Below, one piece after another: positions 22,405-33,654 of a DNA stretch of 51,076 bases (positions are counted from its first letter, which is position 1; every line of letters begins with the position of its first letter). The translations under genes and the position numbers were made by a program. Where the stretch lies: assembly GCF_964222135.1 (NCBI RefSeq), contig NZ_CAXQBR010000098.1, positions 1-51,076 of the forward strand, read 5' to 3'. The stretch comes from Euzebya sp. (lineage in GTDB: Bacteria; Actinomycetota; Nitriliruptoria; Euzebyales; Euzebyaceae). The notes under the pieces were generated by a model, which was given only the letters and a program-made list of their open reading frames with translations, was not told where the DNA came from and did no database searches.

Positions 22405-25275
22405 ATGCAACCCGTCCACGCCCCGGTGCCGAGCGGCATCCACGGGGTCCTGTCGGTCCTGGCGGACCTCGCGGACACCGAGTCCGGCGGTGGTCGTCGC
22501 ACGCGCCCGTCGGCGCCGCCGGCGACCTTCCGCTGGCTCCCGCTGTCGAACCTGCGTGCCCTCGCCAACCCGGACGCCGGAATCCCCCTCGAGATCGGCC
22601 GTCGACAGGTCGTGCAGCACCTCGCGGCCATCGACGCCATCCGTCCCGGCGAGAACAACCTGCGCCTCGGCTGGCTGTGGGCCGCGGGGCGCTTCCCGGA
22701 CGGCGACGGCGGGACCGTCACCGCCTTCGAACCGCTCGTCACCGCCGAGGTCGTGATGCGCGACGAAGCGGCCACGGTCACCGGGGACCTGCTGGTCAGC
22801 CCGCTGATCGAGGACCACACGACCCGCCTGCAGCTCGAAGCGCGCGTCGTCGGCGCGCTCGGCGGGGGCGTCTTCGCCGGCATGGGGCCCGACGCGCCCG
22901 CCGCCATGATCCACCACATGCCCAACCTGCGGGCGTTCGCCGAGCAGGCGGCGGCCGCCGCCGGGTTGCCGGCGACCCGGATGACGTCGGCCCACTCGAC
23001 CCCGGCCTGGTTCGCCGAGCGGGAGGATCCGCGCATCGTCGTGGGACTCGGGATCTACGCAGCCGAGACGCGACCGGACTTCAGCGCCGCCGGGTCGCTC
23101 AGGCTGTGGCACGAGCGGATCGGGAACACCTGGACGGCCCTGCACGCCCTGTACCTCGACCGCGGAGGACCGCCGGCGCAGCCCGGCGACGACATCCCGA
23201 GCGCGTACCGGCTGACCGTGGCCCAGCACCGCTGCGTCGTCGAGGCGCGGACCGCGCCGGTCACGGTGATCTCCGGAGCACCGGGCACCGGCAAGACCCA
23301 CACGATCGCCGCGATCGTCGGTGACGCGGTGGCGCACGGCCGCTCGGTGCTGGTGGCGGCGAAGTCCCCGGCGACCGTGCAGGCCGTCAGCGAGCTGGTC
23401 GCCGCGCGGCCGGGCCCGGACCCGGTCCGGTTCGGCTCGGTCCACGACCGCTACGACCTGTCACGGCGCCTCGCCGCCGGACGCCCGACCCCGATCCCCG
23501 GTGCGGAGACCGACCGGCGTCACGCCGCGATGGCCGAGGCGCTGGAGCGGCGCGACGAGCTGTGGACGGACCTGGCCCGCGCCCTCCACGGCCTCGAGCT
23601 GCTCGGCGACCACGCCCGCGCCCGCGCGTTGCGGGACCGGCTGCCCGGCCTCGGCCGGCCCGACGTCAGCCTCCACGAGGTGGCGACGCTCGCCGCGGAG
23701 ACCCGTCTGCAGCCGCCCGCCTGGCACCAGTTCGGCCGACGCCGGCGCTGGCGGCGCCTGGTCGAGCTGCTCGGCACCAGCACCCCGCCGGACCGGGCGG
23801 ACCTGTACGACGCGATCGCGCTGGCGATCGCCACCCGCGGGTTGGTCGACGGGGCGGGGCGCCTGGATGCGGGTCTGGGCCTCGACAGCCTGCTGGCGGC
23901 CCAGGACCGCCTCGAGCACCTGACCGGGGAGTGGATGGATGCGCTCGCCCGCGACGAGCGGCGGCTCACCCGGGAGGTCCGCGGTGCCCGCGGCGCGCTG
24001 GCCCCCGCGCTGCGGTCGGGACGGGCCACGCGGCGCGCCAAGCTCGCCGAGCTGGGTCGCCACGTCACCACCGCCCTCCCGGTCTGGGTCGGGACGCTCG
24101 GGGACATCGACGACCTCCTGCCGATGCACCCCGCCCTGTTCGACCTGGTGATCCTCGACGAGGCGTCCTCGATCGACCAGCCGCGTGCGGCGACCGCACT
24201 GCTGCGGGGCCAGCGTGCGGTCGTCGTGGGCGATCCCCAGCAGCTGCGCCACGTGTCGTTCCTGCCGACCGCCGCTGTCGATGCGGCACGCGCCGCGCAC
24301 CTGCCGGACGCCTCGCCGGCGCTCGCCGCCAAGCTCGACGCGAGGGCCAACTCGATCTTCGACGTCGCGGCCTCGACCGCGCCGGTGCGCCAGCTCGACG
24401 AGCACTTCCGATCGGGCCCCCACCTCTTCGACTTCGTCGGGCGCGAGCTCTACGACGGCACGGTCGCGCTGGTCACCGCGACACCTGCCAACGCCGACGA
24501 GGACCTGATCGACGTGACGCGCCTCGACGACGCGCGCGGCCCGGACAAGGTCGTCGCCGCCGAGGTCGACGCGGTCCTCGACCGCCTGGCGGCGCTGCAC
24601 GCCGCGGGAGCGGACAGCGTCGGCGTCATCTCGCCGTTCCGCGCGCAGGCCGACGCCATCGAGCAAGCCGCCCTCGACCGGCTCCGCCACGTCGGGATCC
24701 GCGAGCTCGGCCTGCGCGTCGGGACGGTCCACGCGTTCCAGGGCATGGAGCGCGACGTCGTCATCGTGTCCCTCGGCATCGGGACCGGTGACGGCCCGGC
24801 GGTGTGGCGATTCGCCGACGACCCGCACCTGTTCGCCGTCATGGCGACCCGCGCGCGGCGCCGCATCGAGTGGCTGGTCTCGGCCGACCCGCCGGACGGG
24901 TCCCTGATCGGGGCGTACCTCGTCGAGTCGGACCGGCCGCCCGGTGCCGCCACCGCCCCGGTCCGCGGGACGTCCTGGACCGTCCGGCTGTCCGGCGCCC
25001 TCGTCGACGCCGGGCTGTCGGTGGGCGCCCCGTACCGCGTCGGGCGGCACGCCGTGGACCTGTGCGTCCTCGACGCCGACCCAGCCCTCGCGGTCGAGAC
25101 GTCCGTGCACCCCGGCGGCCCCCACGACCACATCCGGCGCCACCTGGAGCTGCGCCAGGCCGGCTGGTCGGTCGCGACGGTCCTCGAGCACGTCTGGGGC
25201 GACCGCCTGGGCGAGGTCGCGGTGCAGCTGCGCCACCACGCCCTCAGCGGCACCCCACCGGTCACATCGCGATGA
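22405..25275 (+). CDS. UPF1/DNA2-like superfamily 1 helicase with C-terminal Vsr-like fold
   Basis: A 956-residue protein. An N-terminal domain of about 260 residues is unrecognised. Walker A GAPGTGKT is at about 291-298, motif II is LDEASS near 585 with GDPQQLRHV soon after (motif III), and motifs V and VI are VHAFQGMERDVVIVSLG near 776 and MATRARRR near 813. The final 100 residues look like a Vsr/DUF559-type nuclease fold: YRVGRHAVDLCVLD, then AVETSVHPGG, then LELRQAGW and a closing VW. The Lys of the (D/E)xK motif appears replaced by Ser. Similar helicase-nuclease proteins occur in accessory and in core regions of actinobacteria; a role in DNA repair or defence is inferred only. A TAGCCT box lies nine bases before the ATG. 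Confidence 0.85.
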   Translation: MQPVHAPVPSGIHGVLSVLADLADTESGGGRRTRPSAPPATFRWLPLSNLRALANPDAGIPLEIGRRQVVQHLAAIDAIRPGENNLRLGWLWAAGRFPDGDGGTVTAFEPLVTAEVVMRDEAATVTGDLLVSPLIEDHTTRLQLEARVVGALGGGVFAGMGPDAPAAMIHHMPNLRAFAEQAAAAAGLPATRMTSAHSTPAWFAEREDPRIVVGLGIYAAETRPDFSAAGSLRLWHERIGNTWTALHALYLDRGGPPAQPGDDIPSAYRLTVAQHRCVVEARTAPVTVISGAPGTGKTHTIAAIVGDAVAHGRSVLVAAKSPATVQAVSELVAARPGPDPVRFGSVHDRYDLSRRLAAGRPTPIPGAETDRRHAAMAEALERRDELWTDLARALHGLELLGDHARARALRDRLPGLGRPDVSLHEVATLAAETRLQPPAWHQFGRRRRWRRLVELLGTSTPPDRADLYDAIALAIATRGLVDGAGRLDAGLGLDSLLAAQDRLEHLTGEWMDALARDERRLTREVRGARGALAPALRSGRATRRAKLAELGRHVTTALPVWVGTLGDIDDLLPMHPALFDLVILDEASSIDQPRAATALLRGQRAVVVGDPQQLRHVSFLPTAAVDAARAAHLPDASPALAAKLDARANSIFDVAASTAPVRQLDEHFRSGPHLFDFVGRELYDGTVALVTATPANADEDLIDVTRLDDARGPDKVVAAEVDAVLDRLAALHAAGADSVGVISPFRAQADAIEQAALDRLRHVGIRELGLRVGTVHAFQGMERDVVIVSLGIGTGDGPAVWRFADDPHLFAVMATRARRRIEWLVSADPPDGSLIGAYLVESDRPPGAATAPVRGTSWTVRLSGALVDAGLSVGAPYRVGRHAVDLCVLDADPALAVETSVHPGGPHDHIRRHLELRQAGWSVATVLEHVWGDRLGEVAVQLRHHALSGTPPVTSR

Positions 25276-26101
25276 GCGCGGTCCCCGACAGCGCCAGGCC
25301 GACGCCCAGCAGCTGGACGCGGCCCAGCCGTTCGCGCAGCACCAGCCAGGCGAGCACGACCACCCCCACCGGGTAGAGGCCGGTCACGACCGAGGTCAGG
25401 ACCAACAGCCCCTCACGCGTCGCCAGCAGGAACAGCACGTTCGCGGCCATGTCGAGCAGCCCGGACACGGTGGCGAACCCCACCGCGTCACGGGCTGGGC
25501 GGGCGGGGCGCCGCAGGGCCAGCACGCCGAGCAGCAACGCCATGCCGGCGACGCGCGCGCCCACGAGCGGCCACAGACCCGAGTCGTCAGGAGCGCGGTC
25601 GAGGGCGACGAAGAAGAACCCGAACAGCACGCCCGCAGCCGCCGCGGCGATGAGACCGGCGCGCTGCGCCGCGGGATCGGCCGTCGGGTCGGCGTCGGCC
25701 GGCCGGGACACCAGGACGGTCGCGACCACGCCGAGGACGATCCCGGCAGCTGCGGTGATCTCCGGGCGCTCGCCCAGCCCGAGGCCGACACCGACCGGGA
25801 TCGCCGCGCCGACCAGCGACGCCACCGGGGCGGTGACCCCCATCGCGCCGATGCTGAGCGCCCGGAAGTACAGCATCAGGCCACCCGCGCCGCCGAGCCC
25901 CGCCGCCAGCCCCCAGGCGAAGGCGGCGGCCGAGAGCCGGCCCGGGAGCACCAGCATCGCCCCCAGCAGGACGACCAGCCCGACGACCTGGCTGAGCAGC
26001 GCGACGGGGATCGCGTGCGCCTTGCGGCTGGCCAGGCCGCCAAGGAAGTCGGCGGCGCCGAAGGTGGCGGCCGACCCCAACGAGAGCAGCAGAGCGGTCA
26101 T
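25262..26101 (-). CDS. DMT superfamily transporter (EamA type)
   Basis: A 279-residue membrane protein with ten hydrophobic helices in two five-helix EamA repeats (about 1-135 and 145-279). Such proteins export or import small metabolites such as amino acids or sugars; the substrate is unknown. The gene converges on the helicase gene and the two coding ends overlap by 14 bases. It diverges from an XRE-cupin regulator, and a palindrome lies between them, so local control is likely. Confidence 0.9.
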   Translation of the reverse strand: MTALLLSLGSAATFGAADFLGGLASRKAHAIPVALLSQVVGLVVLLGAMLVLPGRLSAAAFAWGLAAGLGGAGGLMLYFRALSIGAMGVTAPVASLVGAAIPVGVGLGLGERPEITAAAGIVLGVVATVLVSRPADADPTADPAAQRAGLIAAAAAGVLFGFFFVALDRAPDDSGLWPLVGARVAGMALLLGVLALRRPARPARDAVGFATVSGLLDMAANVLFLLATREGLLVLTSVVTGLYPVGVVVLAWLVLRERLGRVQLLGVGLALSGTALIAM

Positions 26102-26210: not shown

Positions 26211-26816
26211 GTGGACGTCGAGGAGCTCGCAGATGTCATCGGCGCCAACGTGCTGCGCTTCCGCCAGGCGCTCGGCTGGTCGCAGGACGCGCTCGCCACG
26301 GCGTCGGGGTTGTCGAAGGGCACGATCGTCGCGATCGAGCAGCACCGCTCCAACCCGTCGGTCGCGACGCTCTGCGCCCTCTCCGAGACCCTGGGCGTCG
26401 GCCTCGCCACCCTCCTCGAGCGTCCCGCGGGCCCGCTGGTCAAGCACCGCGGCACCGCGGACGCGGTCGTCCTGTGGAGCACGCCCGCGGGGAGCCGGGC
26501 GGAGCTCCTCATCGGCACCGACCCGCCGATGGGCATCGAGCTGTGGCGCTGGCGCCTCGAGCCGGGCGAGGGGTTCGGCGGTGCCCCCCACCCCCGCGGC
26601 ACCCGCGAGACCGTGCACGTGGACGGCGGCGCCCTGACCGTCACGATCGCGGACCGGACCGTCGACCTCGCCGCCGGGGACGTGATCGTCTTCGAGGCCC
26701 ACGAGCCCCACCGCTACGAGAGCGCGGGGGACGGGGCCGCCACGTTCTCGATGTGGATCATCGTCGGCGACCAGGGCGACATGCCCCTCCCCCGGCCGGA
26801 CGCCGACGAGGGATGA
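26211..26816 (+). CDS. XRE-family regulator with C-terminal cupin domain
   Basis: A 201-residue transcription factor. Residues 8-62 form an XRE helix-turn-helix (LGWSQDALATASGLSKGTI with recognition helix and the family ending SNPSVATLCALSETL). Residues about 95-195 form a cupin barrel (EPGEGFGGAPHPRGTRETVHV and HEPHRYES), which in related regulators binds a small ligand. The GTG start has a GGAGG site seven bases upstream. It diverges from the EamA transporter; regulators of this class usually control an adjacent exporter, which is the likely job here. Its stop touches that of the following TetR gene on the other strand. Confidence 0.9.
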   Translation: MDVEELADVIGANVLRFRQALGWSQDALATASGLSKGTIVAIEQHRSNPSVATLCALSETLGVGLATLLERPAGPLVKHRGTADAVVLWSTPAGSRAELLIGTDPPMGIELWRWRLEPGEGFGGAPHPRGTRETVHVDGGALTVTIADRTVDLAAGDVIVFEAHEPHRYESAGDGAATFSMWIIVGDQGDMPLPRPDADEG

Positions 26817-27447: not shown

Positions 27448-27470
27448 GCGCAGATCCTCGCACGCAGCCC

Positions 27471-27519
27471 TTGACGTGACACACGCTCACGTCTAGAAGA
27501 CGTGAGGAACTGTCACGTC
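27471..27519 (+). promoter_or_regulatory. Promoter with twin TetR operators
   Basis: Two inverted repeats of the form GACGTGA-N7-TCACGTC lie at 27473-27493 and 27499-27519, 26 bases centre to centre. A sigma-70-like promoter is embedded: TTGACG at 27471-27476, a 17-base spacer, and TAGAAG at 27494-27499. A repressor bound to either site would block the -35 and -10 boxes. Confidence 0.75.
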
Positions 27520-27539
27520 CTGTCGCACGGGAGGTCGCC

Positions 27540-28908: not shown

Positions 28909-30213
28909 TCAGCCGCGGATGTGGTGCAGCTGGGTGAACCGGCTGCGGAAGGCGGTGGTGCGCGCCTCCACGGCGGTCGGGTCGCCGTCCAGCGCCTCGG
29001 CGATCAACCCGGCCAGCTCGGCCATGTCGTCGGGACCCATGCCCCACCGGACGACCTCGGGCGTGCCGAGGCGCAGCCCCTCCCCCGTCGGCAGCCCGAT
29101 GCCGCTGGCCAGGACGTTCGCCCTGCGGAGGTGGTCTGCGGTGGCCTGCCCGCCGCCCCACCGGTCGGCGTGGATCGCGAGCTGGTGGGTCGTGGTCGGC
29201 CCCTCGGTGGTCGTGAAGACCGGCACCGCGGCGTCCGCCAACGCGTCCGCCAGCGTCCGGGCGGTGTCGACCATCGCCTGGGCGTACGCGGTGCCGTGGT
29301 CGACCCAGTCGAGCAGGGCGACAGCCAGCGCCGCGGTGTTGGCCACGTCGAAGTTGGCGGTCAGGCCGGGGTGGGTGACCGCGTCGATGCGGGCGGCGAG
29401 GTCGGCGTCGTCGGTGAGCACCAGCCCGGCCGGCGGGCCGCCGAGGCTCTTGTAGGTGCTCATCGTGATCAGGTCGGCACCCTGGGCGAGCGGGTTCGGC
29501 CACACCTGCCCCGCGAGCATCCCGCAGGCGTGCGCGGCGTCGAACAGCACGCGCGCACCGGTGGCCCGGGCGACGTCGCTGATGGCCTCGACGGGGTGCG
29601 GGGTCAGGTTGAGGGAGCCGCCGACGGTGATCAGCGCAGGACGGACCCGCTCGGCCAGGTCGGCGAGACCGTCGACGTCGATCGTGTACCGGGCCGCGTC
29701 GATCGGCGCGTGGTGGATCTCGAGGCCGTACAGCCCGGCGGCACCGGCTCGGTCGTGGGTGACGTGCCCGCCGATGGCGGGCGGGGGGACGATGATCGCG
29801 TCACCCGGGCGGCAGGTGGCCATGAACGCGATCAGGTTCGCGATCGATCCGGACGGCACCCGCACCTCGGCGTAGGTCGTCCCCATGACCTCACATGCGA
29901 GGTGGGCGGCGATGACCTCGATCTGCTCGATGGCCTCGAGGCCCGTCTCGTACTTCTCCCCGGGGTGGCCGAGGGACGGCCGGGTCCCGAGCCGCGAGGA
30001 CAGCAGCGCCTCGGCGGCCGGGTTCATCACGTTGGTCGCGGGGTTGAGGTTGACGCACTCCTCGACGTGGATCCGGTCGCTCTCCGCGGCAAGCTCGTCG
30101 ACGGCCGTCGCGATCGCGTCGCTGCCCGTCGGCAGGCCGGCCAGGATCTCGGCCTCCCGGGCCTGGGCGGTGGGTGACAGCCAGGGGCGTGCGGCGGCGG
30201 CGGTGCGGTGCAT
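28909..30213 (-). CDS. Serine hydroxymethyltransferase-like PLP enzyme
   Basis: A 434-residue fold-type I PLP protein of the SHMT family. The N-terminal ECVNLNPATNVMNPAAEALLSS and the GHPGEKYETG block are recognisable SHMT signatures, and the Schiff-base Lys is in MSTYKSLGGPPAG near residue 250, where classical SHMT has TTHKTLRGPR. The altered active-site segment and the presence of a second SHMT being usual in actinobacteria suggest a variant activity such as an alpha-methylserine or threonine-type aldolase; not proven. I choose ATG 30213 rather than the GTG at 30228 because CATCAT stands six bases before it, as in other leaderless starts here. Confidence 0.85.
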   Translation of the reverse strand: MHRTAAAARPWLSPTAQAREAEILAGLPTGSDAIATAVDELAAESDRIHVEECVNLNPATNVMNPAAEALLSSRLGTRPSLGHPGEKYETGLEAIEQIEVIAAHLACEVMGTTYAEVRVPSGSIANLIAFMATCRPGDAIIVPPPAIGGHVTHDRAGAAGLYGLEIHHAPIDAARYTIDVDGLADLAERVRPALITVGGSLNLTPHPVEAISDVARATGARVLFDAAHACGMLAGQVWPNPLAQGADLITMSTYKSLGGPPAGLVLTDDADLAARIDAVTHPGLTANFDVANTAALAVALLDWVDHGTAYAQAMVDTARTLADALADAAVPVFTTTEGPTTTHQLAIHADRWGGGQATADHLRRANVLASGIGLPTGEGLRLGTPEVVRWGMGPDDMAELAGLIAEALDGDPTAVEARTTAFRSRFTQLHHIRG

Positions 30214-30230
30214 GGGCGCATGATGCACCG
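30206..30230. promoter_or_regulatory. Palindrome over the start of the SHMT-like gene
   Basis: CGGTGCAT and ATGCACCG form perfect 8-base arms around a 9-base centre. The element covers the putative -10 box and the first codon, so a bound protein would block initiation. Confidence 0.5.
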
Positions 30231-33075: not shown

Positions 33076-33654
33076 GTGATCACGACCGCACCGACCCGGG
33101 ATCGCCTGGTCGCCGCCGCCCACGACGTCGTCCGCGAGGGCGGGTACGCCGCCGCGAGCGTCGCCGCCGTCGCCGAGCGAGCCGGGACGGGGGCGAGCAC
33201 GCTCTACCGGCACTTCCCCTCGAAGGGCCAGCTCTTCGTCGAGGTGTTCCGCACCGTCTGCGAGGGCGAGATCCGGGCGGCCGAGGCCGCCGCGGCGGCC
33301 CACGACGACCCGGTGGCGCAGGTGCTCGCGTGGGTCCGCACGTTCTGCGCGCGGGCGTTGGCCGCGCCCCGGCTGGCGTGGGCGCTCATCGCCGAGCCGG
33401 TCGACCCGCTGGTGGAGGCCGAGCGGCTGGCGTTCCGGCGCAGCTACCGCGACGGCATCGCCGGCCGCATCGCGGCGGGCGTGGCGGCCGGCCGCCTGCC
33501 CGCACAGGACCCGCACCTCTCCGCCGCCGCGTTGGTGGGCGCGCTGGGTGAAGCGCTCGTGGGACCCACCTCGCCGGACGCGGTGGATCCGGACCTGTCG
33601 GCTCACCTCCAGGAACTGATGGCGTTCACCCGACGGGCGCTGGGGGACGCCTGA
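33076..33654 (+). CDS. TetR-family regulator, probable repressor of the AidB-like operon
   Basis: A 192-residue TetR protein with the helix-turn-helix at residues 8-56 (ASVAAVAERAGTGASTLYRHFPSKGQLF) and a helical C-terminal domain. The GTG start lies seven bases after TACCGT, so the mRNA would be leaderless. The region upstream of the GTG in the same frame overlaps the AidB-like gene and is not coding. Its position opposite the dehydrogenase and the palindrome between them support repression of acyl-CoA genes. Confidence 0.9.
   Translation: MITTAPTRDRLVAAAHDVVREGGYAAASVAAVAERAGTGASTLYRHFPSKGQLFVEVFRTVCEGEIRAAEAAAAAHDDPVAQVLAWVRTFCARALAAPRLAWALIAEPVDPLVEAERLAFRRSYRDGIAGRIAAGVAAGRLPAQDPHLSAAALVGALGEALVGPTSPDAVDPDLSAHLQELMAFTRRALGDA

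Follow-up and report, generated by a model that had tools for sequence, protein, structure and literature searches.

Paired inverted repeats as putative operators between divergent TetR-family regulator and flavin monooxygenase genes

According to the available part of a mycobacterial survey (PMC4482099), about 60% of TetR-family genes are transcribed divergently from an adjacent gene, and the gaps commonly contain palindromic motifs. Regulators encoded less than 200 bp from a divergent gene acted as repressors in five of five tested cases, as described in the accessible text of Ahn et al. (PMC3511530). The same text describes SCO7222 of Streptomyces coelicolor, which represses the monooxygenase SCO7223; the gap between the two carries three perfect palindromes, and both binding and repression were demonstrated. 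The locus analyzed here shares with that pair, as far as it is portrayed there, a TetR gene divergent from a monooxygenase gene, a gap shorter than 200 bp (146 bp in S. coelicolor) and several perfect palindromes, but it carries two copies of GACGTGA-N7-TCACGTC in place of three operators of the form TGGAACG-N-CGTTCCA, and the likeness is one of arrangement, not of protein comparison.

The window, i.e. the whole stretch of DNA that was analyzed, comprises 51,076 nt of a host genome that was searched at 5.06 Mb in 111 contigs. The regulator and monooxygenase genes are divergent and separated by a gap of 92 nt (27448–27539), the features of which are listed in Table 1. An earlier note on this DNA had described two copies of GACGTGA-N7-TCACGTC placed 26 bases apart and, with them, the sequence TTGACG-N17-TAGAAG, and all of these are present exactly as described. 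The two sites have identical 7-bp arms at an identical spacing of 7 bp, and the letters of their spacers are unrelated. They lie 26 bp apart start to start, leaving 5 bp between the 21-bp sites, and together occupy 47 nt in the middle of the gap. The facing half-sites of the two copies form an inner inverted repeat, which is probably a by-product of having two operators.

Table 1. Coordinates of the regulator–monooxygenase locus, given as positions in the window
Feature	Position	Strand	Description
TetR-family regulator, 209 aa	26818-27447	-	Pfam TetR_N + TetR_C_22; divergent from monooxygenase
Promoter-like TTGACG-N17-TAGAAG (weak)	27471-27499	+	-35-like hexamer 27471-27476; TAGAAG 27494-27499
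Operator site 1 (putative)	27473-27493	.	GACGTGA-CACACGC-TCACGTC, exact; overlaps -35-like hexamer and promoter spacer
Inner inverted repeat	27486-27506	.	CTCACGTC-TAGAA-GACGTGAG; made by facing half-sites; perfect 8-bp arms
Operator site 2 (putative)	27499-27519	.	GACGTGA-GGAACTG-TCACGTC, exact; over presumed transcription start
Presumed target, a class B flavin-containing monooxygenase of 444 aa	27540-28874	+	Pfam FMO-like

The regulator matches TetR_N (PF00440; 53.8 bits against a cut-off of 24, residues 25–69) and TetR_C_22 (PF17928; 65.6 bits against 26.4). Its AlphaFold2 model consists of helices only (mean pLDDT 89.4), and the best Foldseek matches are TetR-family regulators, with E-values from 2.9e-5 and query-length TM-scores of 0.55–0.70 among the 50 listed, EthR and DNA-bound SaFadR being among them; as modelled, the protein has the TetR fold. 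The solved structure closest in sequence, 3bni, is a putative Streptomyces TetR regulator, and no inducer can therefore be transferred from it. The class B flavin monooxygenases are recognized by two dinucleotide motifs and an FxGxxxHxxxY fingerprint. The presumed target enzyme scores 206.6 bits against the FMO-like family (PF00743; cut-off 22) and carries two GxGxxG motifs (residues 9 and 175), one FxGxxxHxxxY motif (residue 150) and LATGY at residue 307. Identification as ArsO was rejected at 129.3 bits against an NCBIfam cut-off of 425, as was identification as trimethylamine monooxygenase at 96 against 675 bits.

The exact site pattern occurs only twice in the host genome, as sites 1 and 2. 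Among 66 genomes of the class, the host alone has an exact copy, and it is likewise the only one of 396 genomes of the phylum with the exact double-site pattern. Allowing up to two mismatches, the genome contains 54 forward matches (2 exact, 2 with one mismatch and 50 with two) against 6 for a reversed control pattern, an excess that we attribute to codon preference, not to operators, because 37 of the 48 inspected places are in called genes. Both one-mismatch sites are inside reading frames, which we read as NrdR-like and beta-glucosidase-like. Given that 50 matches are distributed over 819 possible two-mismatch variants, about 0.06 matches are expected per variant, so that a pair of adjacent exact copies is far beyond what chance would give. 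Perfect inverted repeats with 7-bp arms (spacer 0–12) recurring within 100 bp with identical arms and spacer length were found once in the window, as sites 1 and 2, and in none of 60 shuffles of the window or 20,000 shuffles of the gap. A scan of the window at three mismatches was too loose to be informative (5 found, 6.05 expected).

The earlier note had also suggested searching the genome for the same half-sites in order to define the regulon, and no wider regulon is supported by such a search. Surroundings were read for 48 of the 52 non-exact places at up to two mismatches, namely both one-mismatch sites and 46 of the 50 two-mismatch sites; 11 were placed outside genes by a rough codon-usage caller, and some of these may lie in missed genes. 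Among the outside places, one (L046) is between a GHMP kinase and a nucleotidyltransferase gene, and at another (L075) the two adjoining frames gave no Pfam match. None of the 46 two-mismatch places had a second two-mismatch site within 100 bp, and since there is neither another exact site in the genome nor a paired site among the 48 of 52 places, a broader regulon is not seen.

Because the site pattern was defined from the data themselves, a related genome provides the independent test. Within the class, a TetR match at E ≤ 1e-25 was obtained in 2 of 66 genomes, the host and a genome of the same genus (G001, 6.4 Mb), which holds the only orthologous regulator–monooxygenase pair found, in a locus of 4.3 kb (L013). 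The TetR proteins are 59% identical over the alignment, with only two positions differing in the HTH segment MTMSGLA-AAEVSLPS-YRYFPSKQAI, and the monooxygenases are 79% identical. The genes are again divergent, with a gap of 89 nt if the downstream ATG (L013 4882–4884) is taken as the start of the regulator. The regulator frame (L013 4249–4926, minus strand) also offers an ATG farther upstream, which would run into operator site 1, and comparison with the host gene favours the shorter start. Outside the pair, the inspected neighbours are not the same: the host has an EamA transporter, a cupin regulator and an enzyme resembling serine hydroxymethyltransferase, and G001 has an alcohol dehydrogenase and a regulator of the CRP type, which suggests that the TetR and monooxygenase genes stay together as a unit.

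The G001 counterpart of site 2, AACGTGA-CATAGTT-TCACGTC, retains 13 of 14 arm bases, having lost one in the left arm; it lies in the orthologous gap, and nowhere else in the 6.4 Mb does the pattern match with one mismatch or fewer. The counterpart of site 1, GACGTGA-CACTCAA-TCATGTA, is found 28 bp upstream with 12 of 14 arm bases, two having been lost from the right arm, and these two are the only matches at up to two mismatches in the 4.3-kb locus. When a 90-nt stretch of the G001 gap was shuffled, a site with at most one mismatch appeared in 10 of 50,000 shuffles and a pair comparable to that observed in none of 50,000. The sites are not simply preserved in G001 but are kept in a weaker form. 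Each of the eight half-sites in the two genomes retains the inner TGA. Under one of three MAFFT settings, the arms are more conserved between host and G001 than the spacers (25/28 against 6/14 identical; Fisher P = 0.0025); under the other two, which do not bring site 2 into register with its counterpart, arms and spacers show no difference. As this comparison depends on the alignment, we place the weight on the alignment-free results, i.e. the 6.4-Mb scan and the pair shuffles. Because the left arm of site 1 shares bases with TTGACG, conservation of this arm may reflect the promoter. Given where the sites lie, how rare they are and that they persist in the single ortholog pair found, the proposal of the earlier note that the sites would be operators of the adjacent TetR is well supported at the level of sequence. 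The G001 gap also holds an extra perfect palindrome with 8-bp arms, CACTCAAT-CATGT-ATTGAGTG (L013 4916–4936), which the two-operator model leaves unexplained. It has no counterpart with the same letters in the window, and perfect 8-bp-arm repeats of any kind arose in 446 of 20,000 shuffles; the palindrome may be due to chance or may be the site of another factor.

Two further genomes of the genus (G002 and G003) gave neither a TetR match at E ≤ 1e-25 nor a monooxygenase match at E ≤ 1e-80. One-mismatch sites are absent from G002, and G003 has five single ones, two in called genes and three (L091, L093 and L094, each at 1501–1521) in stretches of more than 1 kb without a gene called by the rough caller; there is no second site within the 3-kb locus around any of the five. 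Paired sites were found in no genome other than the two holding the TetR, the host and G001. Among the 396 phylum genomes, which include the host and exclude G001, no other has the TetR at E ≤ 1e-18 or the monooxygenase at E ≤ 1e-120. A scan of genome contigs returned at least six distant TetR loci with 31–34% identity in the best segment and no orthologs among the matches listed, and 135 plasmid records gave partial matches, each below 60% identity and with less than 80% of the query covered. For 18 of 23 distant monooxygenase homologs (39–47% identity), inspection with flanks of up to 1.5 kb revealed no site with fewer than three mismatches; 2 of the 18 have a TetR-similar reading frame (E ≤ 1e-3), which lies on the same strand as the monooxygenase gene and is not divergent from it.

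The earlier placement of the sites over a promoter of the monooxygenase gene stands in part. The -35-like TTGACG is kept in G001. TAGAAG, by contrast, lacks the final T of a -10 element and is represented in G001 by TTGAGT at the same spacing, and no good -10 element lies 14–20 bp from TTGACG in that genome. Scanning with the sigma-70 consensus, which requires the final T absent from TAGAAG, detected no promoter on either strand of the host or G001 gap. The loose pattern TTGACN-N16–18-TANANN occurs once on the two strands of the window, at the promoter-like site at 27471. TTGACG/TAGAAG is a likely, though weak, candidate for the forward promoter of the monooxygenase gene. No promoter for the tetR gene could be assigned in the gap.

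Taking these observations together, we consider it highly probable that the two repeats are operators of the adjacent TetR, which would repress the monooxygenase gene, and probably its own gene, as long as no small molecule is bound. The two half-sites read by a TetR dimer are approximately one helical turn apart, and the inner GTGA and TCAC of each site, 11 bp apart centre to centre, would fit such a dimer. Each site would probably accept one dimer. Since the sites lie in mid-gap over the presumed monooxygenase promoter, the bound regulator should shut off that promoter and probably also the one for its own gene. The 26 bp between the sites correspond to about 2.5 helical turns, from which we infer that the two dimers would occupy roughly opposite faces of the DNA. 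Together they would cover the region from the -35 element through the start, blocking transcription until a ligand, perhaps the substrate of the monooxygenase or a related compound, releases the regulator and turns the enzyme on. The small-molecule switch proposed in the earlier note is plausible for a member of the TetR family. The available part of one report (PMC6449355) describes QacR dimers bound on opposite sides of the helix and, for FadRSa, a mode with two dimers.

A more far-reaching alternative, which we regard as unlikely, is that the four alternating half-sites form one short array, which an oligomerizing TetR would read and so occlude the promoter region, the extra palindrome in the G001 gap serving a further factor and the gene pair being a portable, self-contained small-molecule switch. 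Half-site centres are 14, 12 and 14 bp apart in the host and 14, 14 and 14 bp apart in G001. We consider it quite improbable that the recognized unit is the inner repeat TCACGTC-N5-GACGTGA, with one dimer bound mid-way and the outer half-sites auxiliary. The 8 bp of its perfect arms, compared with 7 bp in the outer sites, speak for this arrangement, but in G001 the distance between the facing half-sites is 7 bp instead of 5 bp and one of the two is degenerate, whereas site 2 retains the N7 plan with 13 of 14 arm bases.

Turning to the two-operator reading and the direction of control, the regulator might activate, or both repress and activate, as a minority of TetR regulators do according to the accessible text of Ahn et al. 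(PMC3511530). Such a mode has a low probability here, given that the sites cover the presumed -35 element to the start, the position expected for repression, and that the five tested regulators of the same source with gaps below 200 bp all repressed. A still lower probability attaches to the sites serving another regulator encoded elsewhere, with the TetR neighbour being incidental. The further palindrome in the G001 gap and the five unpaired one-mismatch sites of G003, a genome without the TetR, would be consistent with this; however, the pairing follows the TetR gene in both genomes where it occurs, and the host genome offers no other exact site and no pair among the 48 of 52 near matches. 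That the repeats are a by-product of chance or base composition is barely credible, for although half-sites are not rare (17 of GACGTGA/TCACGTC in the 51-kb window, including the four of sites 1 and 2) and the 54 loose genome matches fall largely in called genes where inspected, no gap shuffle reproduced the pair and it persists in G001.

Next to the TetR gene in the window, an EamA-type transporter gene (25262–26101, minus strand) is divergent from a gene for an HTH-cupin regulator (26211–26816, plus strand; best NCBIfam match PuuR, below cut-off), and the two are likely to be a second regulator–target pair. Further along, a second TetR-like frame (about 33076–33654, plus strand), as read from translations, is divergent from an acyl-CoA dehydrogenase-like gene, and the 160 nt before its start contain no perfect palindrome with 7-bp arms. 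On the other side of the monooxygenase gene, 28909–30228 (minus strand) encodes a serine hydroxymethyltransferase-like protein, scoring 255.8 bits for SHMT (NCBIfam cut-off 335) and, against a cut-off of 650, 166 bits for fluorothreonine transaldolase; the protein may be a divergent amino-acid aldolase. For the pair itself, a specific putative operator sequence and a clear single presumed target for one TetR offer a direct start for binding and inducer work, and the link of a flavin monooxygenase to a dedicated sensor could help to find the substrate of the enzyme.

EthA of Mycobacterium tuberculosis is also a flavin monooxygenase. Its gene is divergent from that of the TetR repressor EthR across a short gap, of 75 bp, as given in the accessible text of PMC3511530. 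The EthR motif is described in the available part of PMC4482099 as larger, more complex, multi-copy and not a classical palindrome, in contrast to the palindromes found here, and the stretch of EthR that best matches our regulator is confined to the N-terminal region (query residues 20–83). PA3973 of Pseudomonas aeruginosa is TetR-like and has a palindrome and a pseudopalindrome around the -10 element, and removal of the first site and part of the second abolished binding; it differs from the present case in having 14-bp sites 11 bp apart, another sequence and many genomic targets, as far as the available portion of that report goes (PMC9736018). The proposed layout corresponds to that of tetR/tetA, for which the accessible texts describe divergent genes with two palindromic operators in a short gap of 81 bp (PMC3511530, PMC9736018), the two 15-bp operators being 11 bp apart and thus having the same 26-bp centre spacing as here (PMC9736018). 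In the host and G001, too, the genes are divergent across less than 200 bp, and the gap contains, at the sequence level, two like palindromic sites as putative operators. The operator sequence and half-site spacing of tetR/tetA differ from ours, as does its target, an efflux pump; since the presumed target here is an FMO-like enzyme, the locus would work like tetR/tetA but is not that operon. SCO7222/SCO7223 provide an experimental precedent for such a plan with an enzyme in the target position. No description of GACGTGA-N7-TCACGTC as a TetR operator, including near FMO or Baeyer–Villiger enzymes and in work on the nearest FMO structure, was found in the open-licence literature; this word, which very probably marks the regulator's binding sites, is the module's own. 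The arrangement itself is ordinary and its principle is textbook, and the locus is a clear further example of the known plan of a TetR regulator with operators facing a divergent gene.
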